Of a stretch of 64,000 nucleotides of DNA, positions 5,006 to 14,735 are shown piece after piece. The stretch is taken from assembly GCA_003162415.1 (NCBI GenBank), contig PMOL01000004.1, positions 330,474-394,473 of the forward strand. The letters run 5' to 3'. Numbering within the stretch: the stretch's first letter is position 1; each line of letters starts with the position of its first letter. The translations under genes and the position numbers were made by a program. The DNA is from Candidatus Dormiibacterota bacterium (GTDB lineage: Bacteria > Chloroflexota > Dormibacteria > Aeolococcales > Aeolococcaceae). Under the pieces are notes generated by a model. It searched no databases, was not told the DNA's origin, and saw nothing but the letters and a program-made list of their open reading frames with translations.

Positions 5006-5749
5006 GTGTGCACGATCCTCCTGGCCTGGAGATGCGCCTCAGCCGCGCCGATCGTGCTGGCGGCGAATCGGGATGAGCTCATCGCCCGCCCCAGCGCGCC
5101 GCCCGGCGTCCTCATCGCGAGCCCGCTGATCGTCGGGGGTCGCGACCTGGTGGCGGGCGGGACCTGGCTCGCCGTCTCGGCGGATGGCGCCATCTGCGCG
5201 GTGACCAACGGCCATCCGGCGGAGGGGCCACCGGTCGCGCCCGACCCCACGCGCCGATCTCGTGGGGATATCCCGGTCGCCCTGCTGACCGCCTACCGTG
5301 CGGATGTGGCGGCGCGGATGCGAGATCTCGGCCCCGGCAGCTACAACTCGGTCAACGTGCTCTGGGTGGACGAGGACCGAGCGCTGGTGGCCCACGTGGA
5401 CGACTCGGGCCCTGTACGCGTGGTCGAGCTCGCGCCAGGCCCGCATGTGCTCACCACGCGCGATGTGGATGATGCGAAGAATCCCAAGGTGGCGATGCTG
5501 CTCTCGGGCATGCACCGCGTCCTGGCGGCAGGTGACGGTGCTGATGCAGTTGTCGCGGGCTTGCGCGCCATGCTCGCCGATCACGCCTCGGCAAGTGACT
5601 CGCCGGTCGATGCCGCATGCATCCATTGCGATGTCTACGGCACGGTTTCGGCGTCGACGGTCGTCGCGGGGAGCGGGCAACTCGTGTACGAGCACGCGCC
5701 CGGCCGGCCCTGTGTCACCCCCTTTGCAGCGGTCACGATGCCGTCCTAG
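5006..5749 (+). CDS. NRDE (TANGO2-like) family protein
   Basis: 247 residues. The N-terminus reads MCTILLAW, then AANRDELIARPSAPP, the NRDE signature of the family, with the invariant Cys at position 2 that marks an Ntn-hydrolase-like fold. GGRDLVAGGTWLAVS and VTNG are further conserved blocks. Biochemical function is not settled; eukaryotic TANGO2 is linked to lipid or heme handling. The start was placed at GTG 5006 because the Cys must follow the initiator. An open frame runs 200 codons further upstream but is antisense to the PT-rich gene and not credible. The 3' end overlaps the convergent transporter by four bases. Confidence 0.85.
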   Translation: MCTILLAWRCASAAPIVLAANRDELIARPSAPPGVLIASPLIVGGRDLVAGGTWLAVSADGAICAVTNGHPAEGPPVAPDPTRRSRGDIPVALLTAYRADVAARMRDLGPGSYNSVNVLWVDEDRALVAHVDDSGPVRVVELAPGPHVLTTRDVDDAKNPKVAMLLSGMHRVLAAGDGADAVVAGLRAMLADHASASDSPVDAACIHCDVYGTVSASTVVAGSGQLVYEHAPGRPCVTPFAAVTMPS

Positions 5750-7407
5750 TGCCCGCCGCGGGAGGCGAGGATCGTCTTGATGAGCAGGCTCACCATCGCG
5801 ATGATCGCGTAGCCGCGCACCGTGCACAGCGCGATCAAGCGGCCGCGCGACTTAACCGGTTGATCCAGTAAGGCAAGTGACGGCATGCGCCAGGTCTCGC
5901 GTTCCTCCTGCATCCGCGGATCCGGCGGCATCATTCTCCGGGCTCGAACGTTGATCGCGATGGCGAACAGCAAGCCGACCAGCATGACAGCGGCGAGAAT
6001 CAGGAACAGACGGGCGACGTCAATGGTGGGAAAGATCGTCGATACCACAAGGATGACCGAGAGGATCAGCAGCACGCCGAGTATCAGCGACGCGAGCAGG
6101 TTGAACCACGGCCGGTTGACCCAGGGTCCGAGCACATCTCGGTCGTTGCACAAGAAAAGGAGGAAAAGACACGCGCTCGGCAGCATGACGCCCGCGAGAG
6201 CCTGCACCGCAGTCGTCACCAGCCCGAGGGGAACACCCGGGATGAGGACGAATGCAGCGGCCAGAACCACGAGTCCGGTGAACATCGCGTAGAACTGGCG
6301 CGCTTCGCGCCAGGACCTGTGCAAGGAGTTTCTGATGCCGAATGTGTCACCGAACGCGTAGGAAGTTGAGAGCGTCACAGCACTCGCGCCGACGATTGAG
6401 GCATCGATCAACAGGATCGAGAAGATCGCACCGACCGCCGGGCCGGCATGCGACGCCAGACCCTTGGCGAGGTCGTAGGCGTTGGTGAATGCATTCGCAT
6501 TACCCGCCCCAGTCCCGTTGTGATTGAAAGCGAATGCCGTCGCCACCATGATCGCGCTCGCGCCGATGACGACGATGAGTGCCCCGATCGCCGTGTCCGC
6601 GCGCTCGTAAGGGATCCACCGAGGTGTGATGCGCTTGTCGACGACGTTTGATTGCTGGAAGAACAGCTGCCACGGCGTGATCGTGGTTCCGACGATGGCG
6701 ACGATGAGGAGCACACCATCGGATTTGAATCCACCCTGCACACCCGGGATGACGAAGTGCTGAAGGACGGGACCCAGGGTTGGATGACAGAGAAACATCA
6801 ACGGGATGCACAACAGGTTGCCGAAAAGAATGACGAACATCAGCCGCTCCCACGTTTCGAAGCGTCCCGTGACCGTGATACCGACGAGCAGCAGGCCGGC
6901 GAGCGGGACCGCGACCCACGCGGGAACCCCGAAATATTGAGCGCCCAGCGATATGCCGATGAACTCGGTCGCGATCGTGAGGAAGTTGAGTACGAAGAGA
7001 TCGCTGACTGCGAAGCGACCCCAGATCTTGCCAAAGCGCTCGAAGATGAGCCGTCCATGTCCGACGCCGGAAACCGCGCCCAGACGGACCACCATCTCCT
7101 GGTTGACGATGAGCACCGGGATGAGCAGGAGCAACGTCCAGAGCAGGCTTGTCCCGAAGTTCTCTCCGGCGGCGGCATATGTCGAAACGCCGCCTGCGTC
7201 GTTGTCCCCGACCATCACGATCAGACCCGGACCGATGATCACCGCGAGTGCCAGGAGCCGGCGGCGCCACGTGCGCGCACCCGATGGATCGTGCTCGCCG
7301 ATGGTTCCGAAGGCGCCTCTGATGTCGCCGTGATGGGCGTCGTTCGACGCCGTCATGTTGCCGGGCGCCGCCCTGGCATTCGACTTGCGAGCCTTCTCCT
7401 TGGCCAA
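5746..7407 (-). CDS. Nramp-related divalent metal transporter (possible Mg2+/Mn2+ type)
   Basis: 553 residues with about 11 membrane helices. It is a LeuT-fold Nramp-family carrier. The TM1 motif, DPGN in classical Nramps, reads GDNDAGG at residues 67-73. The TM6 motif, usually (A)MPH with the metal-binding Met, reads TPWQ at 244-247. Loss of that Met is known in the Nramp-related magnesium transporters (NRMT), so Mg2+ or another hard ion is a fair inference. The N-terminal ~45 residues are hydrophilic. TTG start with GGGAGG six bases upstream. It lies downstream, on the same strand, of a soluble MgtE/CBS protein (7617-8885), separated by a 209-base leader. Confidence 0.85.
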   Translation of the reverse strand: MAKEKARKSNARAAPGNMTASNDAHHGDIRGAFGTIGEHDPSGARTWRRRLLALAVIIGPGLIVMVGDNDAGGVSTYAAAGENFGTSLLWTLLLLIPVLIVNQEMVVRLGAVSGVGHGRLIFERFGKIWGRFAVSDLFVLNFLTIATEFIGISLGAQYFGVPAWVAVPLAGLLLVGITVTGRFETWERLMFVILFGNLLCIPLMFLCHPTLGPVLQHFVIPGVQGGFKSDGVLLIVAIVGTTITPWQLFFQQSNVVDKRITPRWIPYERADTAIGALIVVIGASAIMVATAFAFNHNGTGAGNANAFTNAYDLAKGLASHAGPAVGAIFSILLIDASIVGASAVTLSTSYAFGDTFGIRNSLHRSWREARQFYAMFTGLVVLAAAFVLIPGVPLGLVTTAVQALAGVMLPSACLFLLFLCNDRDVLGPWVNRPWFNLLASLILGVLLILSVILVVSTIFPTIDVARLFLILAAVMLVGLLFAIAINVRARRMMPPDPRMQEERETWRMPSLALLDQPVKSRGRLIALCTVRGYAIIAMVSLLIKTILASRGGH

Positions 7408-7616
7408 TTCGGACCTCCCACCGTCGATGACGGCAAGACTGAGCGGGCCTGTCCGCTCAGGAGGTCACGAGTACGTCGCTACCTCGAGACGGGCCGGCCC
7501 GTGAGTTGCCGGGACTGGGGACTGTCGCCGCCGTCCATGTGCTGGTGAATACACCCCAAAGAAAGTGGTTGATGTATCCGGAGTGTACAACCCACGCTCG
7601 ACCCGGAGGTCCGAGG
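7408..7616 (-). promoter_or_regulatory. Structured leader between MgtE/CBS gene and Nramp-like gene
   Basis: The gap holds two strong hairpins: TGAGCGG-N6-CCGCTCA at 7440-7459 and the perfect 14-base palindrome ACGGGCCGGCCCGT at 7489-7502. Weaker repeats (GGTTG/CAACC around 7567-7594) are also present. The size suits a metal-responsive leader, but I cannot match it to the M-box, yybP-ykoY or NiCo riboswitch consensus. Confidence 0.35.
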
Positions 7617-8885
7617 TCAGTCTCCGTCGGCCTCCGCGCGGCGCCGCCACGAGTTGGGCAGCATCGCCCCGAGCACGTCGTCGACAGTGATGACGCCGAT
7701 GACCCGATTGTCGTCCTCGAGCACCGCGACGACGGTGAGGTTGAAGTCGGCCATGCGGCGCGCCACCTCGGGAAAATCGTCGTCGACGTGCACCGATGCG
7801 TTGCTGTGCTCGACGAGCTCCGCGATCCTCATCGCACCTTCGGCGCGAAGCAGCTCGATGAGTGGCACCGAGCCGGCGATGTGGCCGTCGTCAAGCAGGA
7901 ACACGTCGGCGGCGACCTGGGGAAGAACATCGGCGGCACGCACCGCGGCGAGTGCGTCGGACACGGTCGCATCGGGAGTGACCGACACGAAGTCCGGGCT
8001 CATCAGTCCGCCTGCGCTGCTCTGTCCATAGCTGAGCAGCGCTCGGACCTTGGCCTGTTGCGACGGTGGGAGCAGCGACAGGATCGGAGCCCGTCGCGGC
8101 TGGTCCAGCTCGGTGACCAGGTCGGCTGCATCGTCGGGCCCCATCTCGGCGAGCACGGCGGCGGCCTCCGCGTCCGACTTGTCGCGGAGAAACTCAACCT
8201 GATGCTCGGTGTTGAGCTCCTCGAAGACGTCGGCCTCGAGCTCTGGATCGCCATGCACCGCCGAGATGATCTCTTCACCCTCGTCATGCGACGCAGCTTC
8301 GACGAGATCGGCAATCTGCGCGGGATGGAGGCGCCGCAGGCGGCGGAGTGGCATGAGCAGTCGCGAGCTGGGAACGTGTCCGACGAAGGGCTCGACCGCC
8401 GCCCAGTCCACGAATCCAGGGTTGTCTGAGCGACCGCCAAGGAGCCGGCCTCGCAGACCCCGCGGACGGGTGTCGACGCCCGCGACGACCCACTTCCCGT
8501 CCTGGGAGCGCAGCTCGATGTCGTGCGCGACCACGAGCCGGCCCGCATCGACGCTGATGAGCCGGCGGCCGAGCACGTCGTCACCGAGCAGCACCTCTCC
8601 CTGGCGTCGCTCGAAATGGGAGAGGTTGAGATCCTCTCCGGCGAGCTGGACGCTGCCCGGTTTCATCTCGGCGATCCGGTCGCGGGGAATGAACAGGCGC
8701 CGGCCGGCAATGCGTCCGACCAGGCCGGTCACCGGCGGATAGCCGCCCTCGGCGAATCGGGCGATGACGTCATCCACCCGGCCGAGCCGGCCCCCAGCTC
8801 GATCGACGAGGGGGCTGTGGATGATCCCGGTGAGCGCCAGCCGGACCGGTTCGGTGGCTGGCTCCCCGGCGTCTGAGGTCGACAT
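7617..8885 (-). CDS. Soluble MgtE N-domain/CBS protein with PRC-barrel-like N-terminus
   Basis: 422 residues. Residues ~15-160 resemble PRC-barrel repeats (SPLVDRAGGRLGRVDDVI; VLGRRLISVDAGRLVVAHDI). About 175-285 is the superhelical MgtE intracellular N-domain (LHPAQIADLVEAA; MGPDDAADLVTEL), and about 290-410 is a CBS pair (LMSPDFVSVTPDATVSDAL; VIGVITVDDVLGAML). The five-helix MgtE channel domain is absent, so this is not itself a transporter. In MgtE these domains sense Mg2+, and the gene precedes an Nramp-like transporter on the same strand. I infer a cytoplasmic metal-sensing partner or regulator of that carrier. The start codon at 8883-8885 is an ATG. Confidence 0.85.
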   Translation of the reverse strand: MSTSDAGEPATEPVRLALTGIIHSPLVDRAGGRLGRVDDVIARFAEGGYPPVTGLVGRIAGRRLFIPRDRIAEMKPGSVQLAGEDLNLSHFERRQGEVLLGDDVLGRRLISVDAGRLVVAHDIELRSQDGKWVVAGVDTRPRGLRGRLLGGRSDNPGFVDWAAVEPFVGHVPSSRLLMPLRRLRRLHPAQIADLVEAASHDEGEEIISAVHGDPELEADVFEELNTEHQVEFLRDKSDAEAAAVLAEMGPDDAADLVTELDQPRRAPILSLLPPSQQAKVRALLSYGQSSAGGLMSPDFVSVTPDATVSDALAAVRAADVLPQVAADVFLLDDGHIAGSVPLIELLRAEGAMRIAELVEHSNASVHVDDDFPEVARRMADFNLTVVAVLEDDNRVIGVITVDDVLGAMLPNSWRRRAEADGD

Positions 8886-8962
8886 ACCGCGCTCAGTCTG
8901 CCACGTCGCAAGGCGCTGTGTCTGTCCGCGCGATGTCCGGGGCGGCGCCCGATGGTTAGGCG

Positions 8963-9685
8963 GTGTCCGTGTCCGCCGTGCCGGCCGACCCCACCCCTGT
9001 CACCACTACACTGACTGTGGCCGGCCGCGGGCACGGACCCTTCCGTTCGCTCGTGAGCCCTGGCTGGGAGGGGTTCTGCGTGGGGATTGTCGACGCTCCG
9101 TGGATGCTCGGCGTGCGCGCACCCGACCGTGGTCGCGCCATTCTCGTGGTCACCATCGACGGCGAGCTTGCGGTCGCAGTGCGCGACGCCGCCCCCGGCG
9201 GAATGGCGGTCGTCCGGGACGCACGGCCAGACGACGCAGACGCGATCGCGGCCGCGTGTCTCCCGTGGCCGTGGATGGTCGTCGGCAGCGCCGTGGCTCT
9301 GACTCCCGCGCTCGCATCGGTTCTGCGCGACCGGCCGGTGCTGACCTACTGGCTCGGCGATCCTCCGGTCGGGCTTCCGAGCCACGCGCGGTACTTCGAC
9401 CGGCCCGCAGCCCTCCTCGATGCCGTACGAAGTGCATGCGCGGGCAGCGTGGGCGGCATGCGCCTGGCCCCGGGCAGTGGCGTCGAGCTCGAGGACGGCA
9501 CGCTGCTGCGCGGCGCCACGCTCGAATCGTTGGTCGCGGCCTACCCGCGCGGATTCGCATTGCCCGCGCGCAATTTCCGAGCGGTCTCGGACGCGTTGGC
9601 ACGGCACAACGCCGGTTGGTCTCCGCAGCGCGGCAGCGCTGCGGAGATGACGCTGGTGCGATCAGCCGCCCGGTCGCAGCGATGA
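8963..9685 (+). CDS. Unknown protein, first gene of a receiver/HATPase cluster
   Basis: 240 residues; not recognised. It is mostly soluble and Ala/Pro/Val-rich, with no signal peptide or clear membrane helix. There is an LVVTIDGELAVAVRDA stretch, and the C-terminal half alternates hydrophobic and acidic residues. Its stop overlaps the ATG of the receiver gene (ATGA at 9682-9685), so the two are translationally coupled and probably work together. GTG 8963 was used; GTG 8969 is equally possible. It may be the signal-input or output partner of the following two genes. Confidence 0.6.
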   Translation: MSVSAVPADPTPVTTTLTVAGRGHGPFRSLVSPGWEGFCVGIVDAPWMLGVRAPDRGRAILVVTIDGELAVAVRDAAPGGMAVVRDARPDDADAIAAACLPWPWMVVGSAVALTPALASVLRDRPVLTYWLGDPPVGLPSHARYFDRPAALLDAVRSACAGSVGGMRLAPGSGVELEDGTLLRGATLESLVAAYPRGFALPARNFRAVSDALARHNAGWSPQRGSAAEMTLVRSAARSQR

Positions 9686-10350
9686 GGGCGAACCCTGAGG
9701 TGCTCATCCTCGAGGACGATGCCGAGACGCTCGATGAGCTGCAGAACCACTTCACGCGCAAGCGGTTTCATCCGCTCGGTGCGCGGAGCGCGTCGCGCGC
9801 GCTGTCGCTGCTCGAAAACAACCAGTACTCGAGCAGGCCGGTTCTGGCGATCATCGACTGGGACCTCGGCAAGGCCCCTGATCGCAACGCGAGTAGCGGC
9901 GACGTGCTGTCGCGACTCGCACGCGAGCTCCGCGAGTGCCCGGTCATCGTCTACTCGCAGAACATCGACGCGTTCAACGTTCGCAGCCAGATCCAGCGTT
10001 CGCATCCGCGAGCCCTGCTCCACGACAAACGCGACGGCGATGCGTCATTGCTCGAGCGCATCGACAGGATGCTCGATCGCACCGTCGGCGACCTCCGGAT
10101 CCACGACGGGACGGTGGTCGTGCACCTCCCGACCCTCGACCAACACCATCACCGCGAGGCGATCCGGCTGGTGGTGCACCACCCCGACATCGTGACCTTC
10201 CACTCGGATACCGCGACCAAGGCGGTTCGCCGTTTCGGTGAGTGGCTGCACAGCCACAACTCGGCGGTGCGGCTCGTGAGTCATGGCAACCGCAAATACC
10301 GGCTCACCGTGGCCGCAAGCGAGGTGTTCGCGCCCGACGCCGAGGCGTGA
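9682..10350 (+). CDS. Response regulator with N-terminal receiver and unknown C-terminal domain
   Basis: 222 residues. Residues 1-~125 are a receiver domain: acidic pocket VLILEDD at 7-13, phospho-acceptor Asp in AIIDWDLGK near residue 57, the conserved Ser in VIVYSQN near 92-94 and Lys in LLHDKRDG near 115. All key residues are kept, so phosphorylation is expected. The C-terminal ~95 residues (GDLRIHDGTVVVHLPTL to the end) match no output domain I know; LytTR-like DNA binding is possible but unproven. ATG overlaps the previous stop, and the stop overlaps the GTG of the next gene. Confidence 0.75.
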   Translation: MRANPEVLILEDDAETLDELQNHFTRKRFHPLGARSASRALSLLENNQYSSRPVLAIIDWDLGKAPDRNASSGDVLSRLARELRECPVIVYSQNIDAFNVRSQIQRSHPRALLHDKRDGDASLLERIDRMLDRTVGDLRIHDGTVVVHLPTLDQHHHREAIRLVVHHPDIVTFHSDTATKAVRRFGEWLHSHNSAVRLVSHGNRKYRLTVAASEVFAPDAEA

Positions 10351-11657
10351 ATCTCACCCTCGCCGAGATCGCCGAGCTGCCCCTGGCCGCGGCGCTCGTG
10401 GACGCCGCCGGCGCGGTGGTCGCGCGAACCCCCGAGTGGGACGGACCTGGGCCCGGAGCCGTCTCCTACCCGGTTCGCAGCGTGCGCCTCGTGGTTCGAA
10501 CCGAGCCGGCGTCCGCGCAGTGCGACGAGCTCCTCAGCCGCCTGCTCGACACCATCGACAGCGCAGCAACTGCCCTCACAGGCACGCATGCGCAGCGGGT
10601 TCGCATGCTCGCGGGTTCGCTCCGGCTCGTCGCCGGGCGCGAGCCGGGCGGGTGGGGCACCACCGATGACGTCATCGACATGGCTCGGGCGGGAATCACC
10701 GCTCGCACCGGCCTCAGCGTGGAGGTGGCGGCGGGACCCGCTCGTCCGGTTCTCGGTCCAGAGATCGCCGCGCTCGTCCTCGTCCAGCTCGCCGTCAACG
10801 CGGAACGGCACGACGCCGCCACCTCGGTCCGGCTCGAGGTCGACCGCACCACGTTCCGGGTCGTCTGGCGTCACGCGGGGGCTGCGCCGCGCATCACCAC
10901 CGCGCGGCGGCGGGCCGAGCGTGATCGCTGGGGTCTCGGCTTCGCGCGTATCGCAGCCGACGCCATCGGCGGCACGGTGTATCCGCCGCGCGCCACCGGC
11001 GACGGGGCACTTGCAGCAACGCTCGAGCTGGGCATCCGCCGCCTGGCGTTGCCGCTTGCCGCTATCCATGACGGTCGCATCCTCAGAGCGACCCGGTCCT
11101 GGGACGAGGAGACCGGGTTGGCCCCAGGGAGCGCGACGGGGAACGGATCCAGGCTCGCGACCATCGAGGCGGCTGCCGCCTCTATGCCCGGGCGCATCGT
11201 GGTGGATACGGGTTTCAGCGCCCGGGCGGCCCTACGGGCGCTCTGGGTGGCGGTGCCCCCGGACGATTCAAGCGTTCGAGCCCGAGAGGTCGTCGCGGGT
11301 CTCGTCCACGAGCGGGCGCTGTCGGATCACATCGAGGAGCCGGCTCGTTCGAACATCGGCGGCCTGGCCCTGCTGCTGGCGACGTTGCTCGGTGAGCCGA
11401 TGCCGCGGGTCCCGATTGCCGCCTGGTCGCGACGGTTGCACGAGTTGCCGCGCGTCCTCGCCATGGCCGGTGAGCTCCCGGAGTTCGACGGCGTCGGTGC
11501 CATCGACCCGCAGGTGGTCGCCGTGCTTGCGCCATCCGGCGCCGGATTCGAGGTCGACGGCGGCAGGCTCTGGCTTCGCGTCCGCGAGGAGTGCCGCGAC
11601 GACGCGGCGGTTCGGGTGCTGCTCAGGCCAGGCGAGAATCGGATCCCGCTGGGCTGA
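10347..11657 (+). CDS. HATPase-domain protein (histidine-kinase-like, no visible HisKA)
   Basis: 436 residues. A GHKL ATPase fold spans roughly residues 110-230, with an N-box-like LVQLAVNAERHD and a G-box WGLGFARIAADAIGG. I see no HisKA dimerisation helix with a phospho-acceptor His before it; residues ~55-90 are helical and could replace it. The last ~200 residues match nothing known. GTG 10347 overlaps the receiver stop (GTGA), so the three genes 8963-11657 form one coupled unit. It is probably a divergent sensor kinase or a partner-switching ATPase. The 3' end overlaps the convergent gene by 35 bases. Confidence 0.65.
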   Translation: MNLTLAEIAELPLAAALVDAAGAVVARTPEWDGPGPGAVSYPVRSVRLVVRTEPASAQCDELLSRLLDTIDSAATALTGTHAQRVRMLAGSLRLVAGREPGGWGTTDDVIDMARAGITARTGLSVEVAAGPARPVLGPEIAALVLVQLAVNAERHDAATSVRLEVDRTTFRVVWRHAGAAPRITTARRRAERDRWGLGFARIAADAIGGTVYPPRATGDGALAATLELGIRRLALPLAAIHDGRILRATRSWDEETGLAPGSATGNGSRLATIEAAAASMPGRIVVDTGFSARAALRALWVAVPPDDSSVRAREVVAGLVHERALSDHIEEPARSNIGGLALLLATLLGEPMPRVPIAAWSRRLHELPRVLAMAGELPEFDGVGAIDPQVVAVLAPSGAGFEVDGGRLWLRVREECRDDAAVRVLLRPGENRIPLG

Positions 11658-12360
11658 CCATCGGCGTTGCCGGGGAGCGCAGCAGGAGTGACGTGATCGC
11701 GGCGAGCAGCGGATGCGCAGCACGTTCGGCCGCTGTGGCGCCCGCTTCCTCGAGAGCCTCGTCGAGCCGCAGAAGATCAGCGGCAAGAACCCGTACGGCG
11801 GCATGAATGATGGCCGCCGGATCGTCCGCCCCCGCGGGCTCCCAGCCATTGTCATCAGTGGCCGGCGGAACTTCGGGAGGCAATTCGACGCCGTCGCGAG
11901 CTCCAGTCGCGTACGCCGTCGCCCAGACGTCATATCCGAGCGACTCCTGGTGTCGCAAGCGCGCCGCGAGCCGCCGCAACGGATCAGGGTCACCGCCAAG
12001 CACGGCTGCCTGTTCGACCAGCCGGAGGACCAGCAGCTTCTGATACCGAGCAACCCAGTACCGGGAGACGCCGGCGGTGAGCAGCCGGGACAGCCGAACG
12101 TGGGCGATGCTGATCCGAGCGGCCGACGGCCCGCCGGAATCGGGCACCAGCACTTCAACGTCACGGCCCACATCCCATACACCCCCAAGCAGGCGAACGA
12201 TCGAGGTGGGCCGCCACGCGTCGATCGATGCGTCCCACCAGTCAACCGGGACATCAGCGAACGAGCGCTCGCCGGTGCTCGTGAGGAGCGCTTGATGCAG
12301 CTCGTCACGGGGACGTGTGGCGAGAAGCGACCAGCCGGCGGGAAGTGTGTGTATAGCCAT
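11623..12360 (-). CDS. Unknown soluble protein
   Basis: 245 residues; not recognised. Trp- and Arg-rich with helical segments (ISIAHVRLSRLLTAG; YQKLLVLRLVEQAAVLGG), no signal peptide and no membrane helix. The N-terminus MAIHTLPAGWSLLATRPRDE may bear a small beta region. It converges on the HATPase gene with a 35-base overlap and is preceded by a 324-base non-coding gap. Codon use is like that of its neighbours. I cannot assign a function. Confidence 0.6.
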   Translation of the reverse strand: MAIHTLPAGWSLLATRPRDELHQALLTSTGERSFADVPVDWWDASIDAWRPTSIVRLLGGVWDVGRDVEVLVPDSGGPSAARISIAHVRLSRLLTAGVSRYWVARYQKLLVLRLVEQAAVLGGDPDPLRRLAARLRHQESLGYDVWATAYATGARDGVELPPEVPPATDDNGWEPAGADDPAAIIHAAVRVLAADLLRLDEALEEAGATAAERAAHPLLAAITSLLLRSPATPMVSPAGSDSRLA

Positions 12361-12684: not shown

Positions 12685-13122
12685 CTACGGCTCCGTCTGT
12701 GCCCCGCGTCCCGTCGACCACCAGGGATCCACCTCGCCTTGCCATGTGGACTGGCGGTGATGTGCTCGTACGACCGTTTTGATGTTGCCGCGCACGTTGA
12801 AGTCGCCGACCACTTCGCAGTACCGGGGTTCGAGCAGCGAGACGAGGTCGCCGAGAACTACATTGACGACGTCTTCGTGGTAGACGTTTTGATTGCGGTA
12901 CCCGTTGATATAGAGCTTCAACGATTTCAACTCGACACAGCGCGGGCCGGGGACGTATCGGATGTGCAAGGTTGCGAAATCGGGGAAGCCGGAGATCGGA
13001 CAGAGGCAGGTGAACTCGGGGATGGTGAACTGGATGGTGTAGTCGCGGTCGGGCGTACGGTTGTCGAAGGCTTCCAGCCTGGCCTCGCGGATCGCGCGCG
13101 TGCCGTACAGTTCGTCGCTCAT
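12685..13122 (-). CDS. queF: NADPH-dependent 7-cyano-7-deazaguanine reductase
   Basis: 145 residues, the compact (unimodular) form. It reduces preQ0 to preQ1 in queuosine synthesis. EFTCLCPISGFPDFATLHI holds the thioimide-forming Cys (Cys41) and the general-acid Asp (Asp48); the QueF signature ELKSLKLY is at residues 64-71. The C-terminal ~25 residues (STWQGEVDPWWSTGRG) extend a little beyond the usual end. ATG overlaps the stop of the upstream transporter gene by four bases, so the two are coupled. No other queuosine genes are in the window, which suggests salvage of preQ0 or preQ1. Confidence 0.93.
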   Translation of the reverse strand: MSDELYGTRAIREARLEAFDNRTPDRDYTIQFTIPEFTCLCPISGFPDFATLHIRYVPGPRCVELKSLKLYINGYRNQNVYHEDVVNVVLGDLVSLLEPRYCEVVGDFNVRGNIKTVVRAHHRQSTWQGEVDPWWSTGRGAQTEP

Positions 13123-13841
13123 TGCTCCGCTCCGCGCAACCGCGCGCGCAGGGATGCAAGCGGGATCGGCGCGAACTTGGTGTCGCGATCGTACGTGTCC
13201 ACACCCTCGATGCGCTTGAGCGCTGTGACCAGAGCGTAGGTGATCGGGGTGGCGATCACCTCGTAGAGGACCTTCACGACCCAGACGTCGCGAATGATGA
13301 TGATGAGCACCGACCAGGGTTGGAGGCCACCGAATGCGAGTGAGATGAAGACTGCGCTGTCCACTCCCTGGCCGACGAGCGTGGATCCGATGGTGCGCGT
13401 CCAGAGGAAACGCCCCTTGGTCGCCACCTTCAACCTCGCCAGGACGAAGGCATTGAGAAACTCGCCGAGCAGGTAGGCCGTGAGCGATGCCAGCACGAGT
13501 CGCGGGCTCTCACCGAGTACGCGCGCGTACGCGGCCTGATCGCTGTAGTGCGCGTTGGCCGGGATGGCGATCGCGGCCGCGATGAACAGCACCACGATGA
13601 TGTTCGCGAAGAATCCCGTCCATATCACCGTGCGCGCCACACGGTAGCCCCACACCTCGGTGAGCACGTCGCCGAAGAGGTACGCGAGCGGAAAGATCAC
13701 GATCGCAGCCGGGACCGAGAACGGTCCGACGTCGGCGATCTTGACCGCGAGGATGTTGGACGCCACCAGCGTCGCGACGAAGAGCGACGAGATGGCGAGG
13801 AGCAGGGGGCTCGGGACGCGTGAAGGAGGGCGCTGCGTCAT
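13119..13841 (-). CDS. Queuosine precursor transporter (YhhQ/VUT family)
   Basis: 240 residues with about six membrane helices. The family imports preQ0/preQ1-type 7-deazapurines across the inner membrane. Recognised from NILAVKIADVGPFSVPAAI, FPLAYLFGDVLTEVWGYR and GQGVDSAVFISLAFGG. Placement directly upstream of queF, with a four-base overlap, supports the substrate. ATG 13841 directly abuts the ATG of the divergent DMT gene at 13842; the ORF runs much further upstream but only as antisense of that gene. Promoter sequences must therefore lie within coding DNA on one side. Confidence 0.88.
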   Translation of the reverse strand: MTQRPPSRVPSPLLLAISSLFVATLVASNILAVKIADVGPFSVPAAIVIFPLAYLFGDVLTEVWGYRVARTVIWTGFFANIIVVLFIAAAIAIPANAHYSDQAAYARVLGESPRLVLASLTAYLLGEFLNAFVLARLKVATKGRFLWTRTIGSTLVGQGVDSAVFISLAFGGLQPWSVLIIIIRDVWVVKVLYEVIATPITYALVTALKRIEGVDTYDRDTKFAPIPLASLRARLRGAEQ

Positions 13842-14735
13842 ATGGAGCCGCACAGCGTAGAAGATCTCGCCGTGAGCAGACGTGGCCTGGTCCTCTTCGT
13901 GGCGATGTGCGTGATCTGGGGCATCCCTTATCTGCTCATCAAGGTGAGCCTCGAAGGCCTGGGACCGGTCGACCTCGTCTTCTTCCGGTTCGCGCTCGGC
14001 GCCCTCCTGCTGGTCCCGATCGCGCTGGGTCGCGTCGAAATCCGTCCACTGCTCGGTCGCTGGGGTTGGATCGTCGCGTACACGATCATCGAGATGGGGA
14101 TCCCGTGGGTGCTCCTGTCGGACGCCGAGTTGCGCATCTCGAGCTCGCTGTCCGGACTGCTTGTCTCGACGGTGCCCCTCATCGGCGTGGTGATCGGGCT
14201 GGTCACGCGAAGTGGCGAGCACCACGGCTGGCGCCGGATCCTCGGCCTCTGCATCGGCCTTGTCGGAGTCGGCGTGCTGGTCGGCTTCGACGTCTCGTCG
14301 TCCACCTTCGGTGCGATCGCAGAGGTGCTTGCGGTCGCGATCTGTTACGCGACCGGGCCGTACATCATCAACCGCAAGTTGAGCGACCTCCCGTCCCTCG
14401 GGGTGATCGCGAGCTCGCTGCTCCTGGCGGCGGTCGCCTACGCGCCGGCCGCGCTCATCCAGCTGCCCCACGCCTGGCCGTCAGGCGAGGTGATCGCCGC
14501 TGTGCTCACGCTCGGCATCGTCTGCACCGCGCTTGCATTCCTGCTCTTCTTCGCGCTCATCCGGGAGATCGGCCCGGTCCGCTCGACGGTGATCACATAC
14601 GTGAACCCGGCGGTGGCGGTCACGCTCGGGGTGATCCTGCTCCACGAACGTCTGACCGGCGGGATCGCCGTGGGTTTCGTCCTCATCCTCTGCGGGTCGG
14701 TGCTTGCGGCGAGAGCCGCTCCGTCGCGGACCTGA
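13842..14735 (+). CDS. EamA/DMT-family transporter
   Basis: 297 residues, ten predicted membrane helices arranged as two EamA repeats (first about residues 15-145, second about 155-290). Typical motifs are AMCVIWGIPYLLIKVSL at the start and EIGPVRSTVITYVNPAVAV in the second repeat. These carriers export amino acids or other metabolites; the substrate cannot be told from sequence. ATG 13842 leaves no gap to the divergent transporter start; GTG 13873 (MSRRGLVLF) would leave about 30 bases and is a reasonable alternative. It converges on clpB with a six-base gap. Confidence 0.85.
   Translation: MEPHSVEDLAVSRRGLVLFVAMCVIWGIPYLLIKVSLEGLGPVDLVFFRFALGALLLVPIALGRVEIRPLLGRWGWIVAYTIIEMGIPWVLLSDAELRISSSLSGLLVSTVPLIGVVIGLVTRSGEHHGWRRILGLCIGLVGVGVLVGFDVSSSTFGAIAEVLAVAICYATGPYIINRKLSDLPSLGVIASSLLLAAVAYAPAALIQLPHAWPSGEVIAAVLTLGIVCTALAFLLFFALIREIGPVRSTVITYVNPAVAVTLGVILLHERLTGGIAVGFVLILCGSVLAARAAPSRT

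Follow-up and report, generated by a model that had tools for sequence, protein, structure and literature searches.

What kind of signalling machinery is encoded by three tightly coupled genes of a family that the annotation libraries leave undescribed? The question is raised by a locus of Candidatus Dormiibacterota bacterium, from an uncultured soil lineage, that lies in a 64,000-nucleotide (nt) stretch of contig PMOL01000004.1 (hereafter the window, whose positions are used throughout) in a genome of 3.69 Mb. Three co-oriented reading frames, A, B and C, are found there.

9080..9685, plus strand: gene A, pseudo-response regulator, 201 amino acids from the most likely start, GTG 9080 (structure model, structure matches, profiles, codon periodicity)
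9682..10350, plus strand: gene B, response regulator, 222 amino acids, codon of the predicted phospho-acceptor Asp59 at 9856-9858 (conserved residues)
10347..11657, plus strand: gene C, kinase-like protein, 436 amino acids, internally duplicated (structure model, fold match, profile comparison)

A preliminary description, made from the letters alone, had seen a three-gene unit with four-base overlaps at both joints and had read it as a divergent phosphorelay or partner-switching system. Our analysis suggests, with somewhat more confidence than doubt, that A, B and C form one OmpR/PhoB-style two-component system with a duplicated kinase-like C, acting via TGTCCG repeats. The overlaps were confirmed: B starts at 9682 and A ends at 9685 (ATGA, 9682-9685), and C starts at 10347 and B ends at 10350 (GTGA, 10347-10350). 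They recur in other loci, where, with start codons assigned by script, A and B share 4 nt in 19 of 24 loci, and B and C do so in 20 of 33. The unit itself recurs as well, as a check of neighbourhood conservation proposed in that description showed. In a scan with one genome per species, the order A-B-C was present in 23 of 29 loci, whose titles give Dormiibacterota or Dormibacteraeota, a candidate genus (Dormiibacter, for example), Chloroflexi, or no more than 'bacterium'. In four of the remaining six (L082, L084, L089 and L094) the contig starts within the unit, and two (L090 and L091) contain B and C without A although upstream sequence is present. Of 61 genomes, 28 contained relatives of C, a figure that includes the window genome. 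Across the phylum they were found in 11 of 251 sampled genomes, ten of them in the window's class; the eleventh match, in G091 (E 8e-4, positions 99-210 alone), is a short one that we took for an ordinary catalytic and ATP-binding (CA) domain. Since the trio is kept over many genera, its association is more than chance.

The receiver of B points to two-component signalling. Glu11, Asp12, Asp59 and Lys116 were conserved in 30 of 30 B sequences and Ser/Thr92 in 26, the four with Ala being element copies (L052, L053, L055 and L056), which bears out the earlier statement that the middle gene is a receiver with all catalytic residues. Judged by these residues, B is a complete receiver and would be the phosphorylatable paralogue of A. 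Its similarity to library models is low: B scored 20.2 bits against Pfam Response_reg, under the cut-off of 30.2, and the single sequence found no match at 0.01 among PDB sequences, where a profile of B found receivers from E 4.7e-4. Full-length B aligned end to end with OmpR-family regulators of the window genome (193 columns, E 6.6e-11), chiefly via the receiver. The C-terminal domain had no Pfam match (no Trans_reg_C), and its profile comparison with 15 OmpR-type domains of the window genome (E 0.027, score 15.9, maximum of 15.8 in 100 shuffles) is weak alone, a point against the proposed OmpR/PhoB-style system. We read the tail as probably an OmpR-type winged helix that has lost its second helix.

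10072..10320, plus strand: C-terminal domain of B, probably a reduced OmpR-type winged helix (profile comparison, weak alone)

Gene A had been called wholly unknown. It indeed had no match in Pfam, NCBIfam or PADLOC, and a profile of A gave 11 matches among PDB sequences (best E 0.41), none of them convincing, but its relationship to B identifies it. Profile comparison of A with B covered 163 columns with a score of 33.0, against a maximum of 19.2 in 100 column shuffles, demonstrating that the two are homologous paralogues. The structure model of A (mean predicted local distance difference test, pLDDT, 80.9; predicted template modelling score, pTM, 0.74) comprises five beta-alpha units followed by two helices and a beta hairpin. 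Its best Foldseek matches were OmpR-family regulators at E 1.6e-3 and worse, none below 1e-3, and the receiver part reached Z scores up to 9.8 (3.0 Å over 97 residues), with non-receiver folds tied within 1 Z unit; sequence backs the assignment of A better than structure matches do. Val107 of A is aligned with Asp59 of B, and this column holds Val, Ile or Ala in 23 of 23 A relatives and Asp in none. Seven of the 23, the window's A not among them, have an Asp two residues past this column, and for those seven another register is possible. A receiver fold that lacks the phospho-accepting Asp marks the window's A as a pseudo-response regulator.

9134..9445, plus strand: receiver-like domain of A without phospho-Asp (five beta-alpha units in the model, receiver matches, Val107)
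9446..9670, plus strand: reduced winged-helix-like tail of A, two helices and a beta hairpin (model; co-linear with B)
9067..9071, plus strand: GGAGG, probable ribosome-binding site of A (read in the sequence; region aligned among congeneric genomes)

The start of A differs from that of the preliminary description, which had let the gene begin at 8963. A comparison of six congeneric genomes, that of the window among them, showed no codon periodicity in codons 1-39 of the long frame (8963-9079), with variable sites of 0.31, 0.36 and 0.33 at codon positions 1, 2 and 3; in codons 57-110 the values were 0.26, 0.15 and 0.70. The structure model is disordered there (pLDDT below 50 for residues 1-51). 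The start at 8963 was dropped for these two reasons, and the most likely one is GTG 9080, 8 nt past GGAGG, giving 201 amino acids. With this start, 8886-9079 becomes a divergent intergenic region.

C is equally remote from the libraries. No Pfam or NCBIfam match was found at E up to 1, none in PADLOC, and searches of PDB sequences gave nothing convincing (one match at E 0.43 for C alone; two VTA1 matches at E 0.53 and 0.6 for its profile). Its structure model (pLDDT 88.7, pTM 0.87) was informative. Residues 97-231 adopt the CA fold of histidine kinases, with a best Z of 11.8 (2.8 Å over 128 residues, PrrB), and the profile of this domain matched HATPase_c proteins of the window genome at E 4.5e-7. 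The helix hairpin before it (residues 57-95) has no conserved His. In the model, the second half repeats the order of elements of the first, namely a PAS-like segment, a hairpin and a CA-like remnant, and comparison of the two half profiles scored 36.7 (maximum of 19.0 in 100 column shuffles; 15.2 reversed). These computations show that C is an internal tandem duplication of a PAS-helix hairpin-CA unit.

10515..10631, plus strand: first-half helix hairpin of C without conserved His, residues 57-95 (model, conservation)
10635..11039, plus strand: first-half CA (HATPase) domain, residues 97-231, N and G2 boxes kept, G1 Asp replaced by Trp174 (fold match, conservation)
11040..11258, plus strand: second-half PAS-like segment, residues 232-304 (model; alignment to the beginning of the first half)
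11268..11387, plus strand: second-half hairpin with invariant His321 followed by Glu322, codon 321 at 11307-11309 (conservation, model, profile)
11406..11654, plus strand: probable truncated CA-like remnant of the second half (order of secondary structure in the model)

His321 in the second hairpin was conserved in 26 of 26 C sequences, followed by Glu in 25 and Asp in one. Against 30 HATPase_c proteins of the window genome, the best local match of the second half ended at the residues read as the His-Glu of their H box. This match to kinases is weak (E 0.06-0.08; equally good scores came from 1 of 100 and from 0 of 100 shuffles), which is a further point against the proposal. The HATPase protein had been described as lacking a visible HisKA; no library model matched one, but a conserved His-Glu is present all the same. 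Clear profile matches of C to an ordinary HisKA kinase and of the B tail to a known output domain had been named as results that would refute the description. The parts of C and B regarded as unfamiliar match no ordinary library profile, yet profile-profile comparison of both and structure comparison of C place them, the B tail weakly, as derived versions of known parts, a duplicated kinase and a reduced OmpR-like winged helix. Most histidine kinases act as dimers, and C looks like such a dimer within one chain.

Whether C uses ATP is less clear. In the CA domain of histidine kinases, the Asp of the G1 box makes contact with adenine, and magnesium is held through the Asn of the N box. In C, the N-box Asn151 and each of the two G2 glycines were kept in 25 of 26 sequences and Arg192 in 26 of 26. 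The Asp of the G1 box (DxGxG), expected of a histidine kinase, is replaced by Trp174 in 26 of 26 relatives, and ATP use by C is therefore doubtful. On this pattern of residues, retention of the N and G2 boxes favours binding of a nucleotide or of phosphate, and the G1-box Trp argues against ordinary ATP use. C could instead be a histidine phosphotransferase of the Spo0B/ChpT kind, its CA-like domain having ceased to hydrolyse ATP and His321 relaying phosphoryl from an unlinked kinase to B, a reading that overlaps our preferred explanation and that we hold to be possible, short of likely. The invariant Trp fits it, as do the retention of the His in one half only and the presence of ChpT structures among the Foldseek matches of C. 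ChpT is reported to show no autophosphorylation and no ATP bound in its crystals (PMC3433190), and among the systems compared it is the nearest kinase-like protein without ATP use. Like C, it combines a helix hairpin with a degenerate CA domain, and ChpT and Spo0B carry out the His phosphotransfer proposed here for C; unlike C, which holds both halves in one chain with one conserved His, they build their four-helix bundle from two identical subunits (PMC3433190). Conservation of Asn151, the G2 glycines and Arg192 would be unexpected in an idle pocket, however, and no donor kinase has been identified.

The HATPase domain without a library HisKA match could also suit the partner-switching half of the preliminary description, with C as a serine kinase or an anti-sigma factor that A or B would antagonise. 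We consider this very improbable. Neither Pfam nor NCBIfam found a STAS antagonist, a serine-kinase anti-sigma factor or a PP2C phosphatase in A, B, C or three flanking proteins; in addition, B is a complete receiver, A has a receiver fold, and the upstream motif described below is an OmpR-style direct repeat. The two-component or phosphorelay half of that description is favoured by the B receiver, the CA domain and His-Glu of C, and the pseudo-regulator A.

A candidate site of action was found in the intergenic region upstream of A.

8923..8939, plus strand: direct repeat TGTCCG-N5-TGTCCG with an 11-bp period, proposed B/A binding site (upstream motif counts; one of two strict copies in the window genome)
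8951..8956, plus strand: GATGGT, a -10-like hexamer 11 nt past the repeat, not a full TANNNT (within the block GATGGTTA)

TGTCC-N6-TGTCC is among the conserved blocks upstream of A in the genus, and the block GATGGTTA with GATGGT is identical in the six congeneric genomes, while its flanks vary. Just past this -10-like block, two further close TGTCCG copies lie at 8963-8976 (GTGTCCGTGTCCGC), likewise identical in the six genomes. Among 14 representative loci (24 upstream regions minus 10 near-duplicates), GTCCG-N6-GTCCG was present upstream of A in 8, the window included, against a mean of 0.054 and a maximum of 1 in dinucleotide shuffles; since it was in the window's genus that this pattern first came to notice, the independent count is 7 of 13, without the window. 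At spacings of 9, 10 and 12, no pentamer recurred upstream of A in more than 2 of the 14 loci. The repeat was also found upstream of A where the upstream neighbour differs.

The strict repeat TGTCCG-N5-TGTCCG is enriched in genomes that contain C: these 28 genomes held 107 sites (7 in the backward control), and the 33 genomes lacking C held 14 (6 in the control); at least one strict site occurred in 24 of the former and 7 of the latter. We inspected 55 of the 121 strict sites singly, those of seven genomes (G019, G010, G053, G012, G007, G027 and G018), and one from the window genome (G000). Of the 55, 37 lie outside called genes, compared with 22.5% of random positions; the gene caller, based on G+C by codon position, is crude, so that these intergenic counts are approximate, but the same caller served the random control. 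Adding the site from the window genome gave 38 intergenic sites. At 26 of them the repeat points towards a gene start no more than 150 nt away, and at 8 it points away from one. A TANNNT hexamer stood exactly 11 nt past the repeat at 24 of the 38, any other offset occurring at most twice. The composite pattern of TGTCC repeats and TANNNT had 98 matches in the 61 genomes (control 0), and 93 of these fell in 13 of the 28 C-bearing genomes. Binding sites of the PhoP/PhoB type consist of direct repeats with an 11-bp period (PMC4832192, PMC4415409), and by analogy the geometry of repeat and -10 box here is that of OmpR/PhoB-type promoters.

The assignment of this motif to B and A faces several objections. 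The link is correlative and ignores phylogeny: the strict motif is missing from 4 of the 28 genomes with C and present in 7 of the 33 that lack C. Four small genomes (1.5-2.0 Mb) account for 77 of the 93 composite matches (28 in G019, 22 in G023, 18 in G010 and 9 in G012). The other five composite matches are in G022 and G029, plus one in G043, three genomes in which A was not found, and in G022 and G029 composite promoters occur with neither A nor C found. The window's own genus (seven genomes) contains no strict composite match, and with one mismatch allowed the window genome shows no clear excess of the repeat (25 sites, control 17). The looser GTCCG-N6-GTCCG was near background in that genome (25 versus 20) and, with one mismatch, fell below chance in the window (9 versus 22.5). 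The repeats may thus belong to another OmpR-family regulator that also controls ABC, B and A having other targets or none. The imperfect match between motif and C and the two genomes with composite promoters but without C and A would fit this explanation, as would the 18 Trans_reg_C matches of the window genome, none of which falls at B. We regard it as rather unlikely. The repeat stands upstream of A in 8 of 14 representative loci, also where the upstream neighbour is another; the 29 genomes of other families hold four composite matches, three of them in G053, which carries C; and the G022 and G029 assemblies are 80% and 71% complete, with C present in five congeners.

With the repeats attributed to B and A, which genes might they control? 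The window genome has two strict sites, one before ABC and one near a Flp pilin gene. The latter site lies about 130 nt before the conserved part of the gene (Flp_Fap, E 3.3e-9) and overlaps the far start of the longest frame, and the gene is the first of a cluster that also encodes a CpaB-like (SAF) protein and two T2SSF proteins. At L093, A is divergent from a Flp pilin gene (E 4.7e-13), and at L079 from a cluster with a TadA-type ATPase (T2SSE, E 2.6e-29), whose neighbours we read as CpaB, TadZ, TadB and TadC, without informative Pfam matches. At L074 (G019), A is divergent from a small membrane protein with the repeat between them, and a VirB4/TraG-like ATPase (E 1.9e-14) is also encoded there. 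Sites in G027 precede a type IV secretion coupling protein and a LigD-like ligase, and a site in G018 a protein with a weak PrgI match. Further sites stand before genes for a divergent ClpP (G019, G010, G012 and, by position, G023), Clp-type AAA proteins (G010 and G012, with a homologue in G019), ribosomal protein L31 (G010, with a homologue in G019) and a GGDEF protein (G019). Many other candidate targets had no match or no shared theme, and no phosphate genes were among the 30 downstream proteins scanned with Pfam. As far as these annotations go, the theme that returns among the candidate targets is that of surface structures and secretion (Flp/Tad pilus, type IV secretion). Control of ClpP by the motif was dropped as a general feature, being limited to the divergent extra ClpP in G010, G012, G019 and G023; one site in G027 falls inside another clpP gene.

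Two side observations concern these genes. In G019, chromosomal type IV secretion-like genes near repeat promoters (L074, L226 and L227) encode the small membrane protein, the VirB4/TraG-like ATPase and a large membrane protein without Pfam match. At L224, L237 and L258, a divergent extra ClpP lies behind a TGTCCG repeat in small genomes (1.5-2.0 Mb), and in G019 and G010 it is back to back with the L31 gene.

For phosphotransfer, DNA binding by B or A, pairing of A with B, and activation as the direction of regulation, we infer the following course. The first half of C would keep the ATP-type domain and the second half the phospho-histidine, His321, so that one chain imitates a kinase dimer. 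Phosphoryl on His321, whether the first half of C places it there or another kinase supplies it, would most likely pass to Asp59 of B. Phosphorylated B, as a homodimer or paired with A, would then bind the two TGTCCG half-sites 11 bp apart, which would occupy the -35 place 11 nt before the -10 box, and transcription would be activated in the direction of the repeat. Targets may include the unit's own operon and, depending on the genus, genes for the Flp/Tad pilus, type IV secretion and Clp proteases. A stronger version of this proposal makes C a natural single-chain histidine kinase, formed by gene duplication together with fusion, that feeds an asymmetric B/A pair on a polar repeat with fixed -10 spacing, both symmetric dimers having turned into heterodimers; we offer it tentatively, with more doubt than belief.

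Comparison with known systems showed partial likeness. The nearest operon found is CmrRST of Clostridioides difficile, which like A-B-C combines a kinase, a phosphorylatable OmpR-family regulator and an OmpR-family regulator without the Asp, and whose regulators form heterodimers in pull-downs but not in two-hybrid assays (PMC12548384). On the other hand, CmrT has a phosphomimetic Glu where the window's A has Val, CmrS is described there as a histidine kinase only, whereas C is duplicated, and CmrR binds an inverted rather than a direct repeat (PMC12548384). How such pseudo-receiver partners might work is discussed in a perspective (PMC12632262). PhoB and PhoP resemble the proposed system in that a dimer of regulators arranged in tandem reads direct repeats with a period of 11 bp (PMC4415409, PMC4832192); they differ in the half-site, TGTCCG here, and in that the winged helix of A, and probably that of B, seems one helix short of the classical domain. 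The nearest non-dimer kinase is EL346, a soluble histidine kinase able to act undimerised; its LOV domain blocks the dimer face of a single DHp-like domain (LOV-HK architecture), whereas C consists of two PAS-hairpin-CA units (PMC10359499). Within the library searched and the terms used, the literature yielded neither a natural fused histidine kinase dimer nor a description of the A-B-C family in Dormibacterota.

The surroundings of the unit vary. The window genome has two further copies of C, each with B (L052 and L053), and their neighbours resemble by eye those of L090 and L091, where Pfam recognised ParB, SSB, M23-peptidase, ArdC-like and VirB4/TraG-like genes. These B-C copies without A sit next to genes for type IV secretion and appear to belong to integrative or conjugative elements; protein P0003 had no match among plasmid or phage records. 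On the minus strand, a 245-residue protein (11623-12360), for which neither Pfam nor NCBIfam gave a match, is encoded convergently to C and shares 35 bases with the 3' end of C, and a homologue lies downstream of C in several loci (identity down to 32%). Also on the minus strand, 5746-8885 encodes an NRAMP transporter and an MgtE_N/CBS protein, divergent from A, and L067-L069 have two NRAMP-like genes in tandem. That the trio serves these divergent genes was dropped as the main idea, since the pair is kept in only 9 of the 23 ABC loci and the repeat is present without it too. Farther on (12685-13847, minus strand), QueF adjoins a YhhQ-like transporter, named by eye, and the two form a queuosine-related pair; in 12 of the 29 loci, too, QueF lies near C.

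If this reading of C is right, a fused kinase with one ATP domain and one phospho-histidine would reveal which half phosphorylates which and how the asymmetry serves the protein. The predicted site of fixed geometry and the candidate promoters in several genera make a family without library annotation testable at the bench, and they may tie Flp/Tad pili, type IV secretion and Clp proteolysis to a regulator from a soil lineage not yet in culture.

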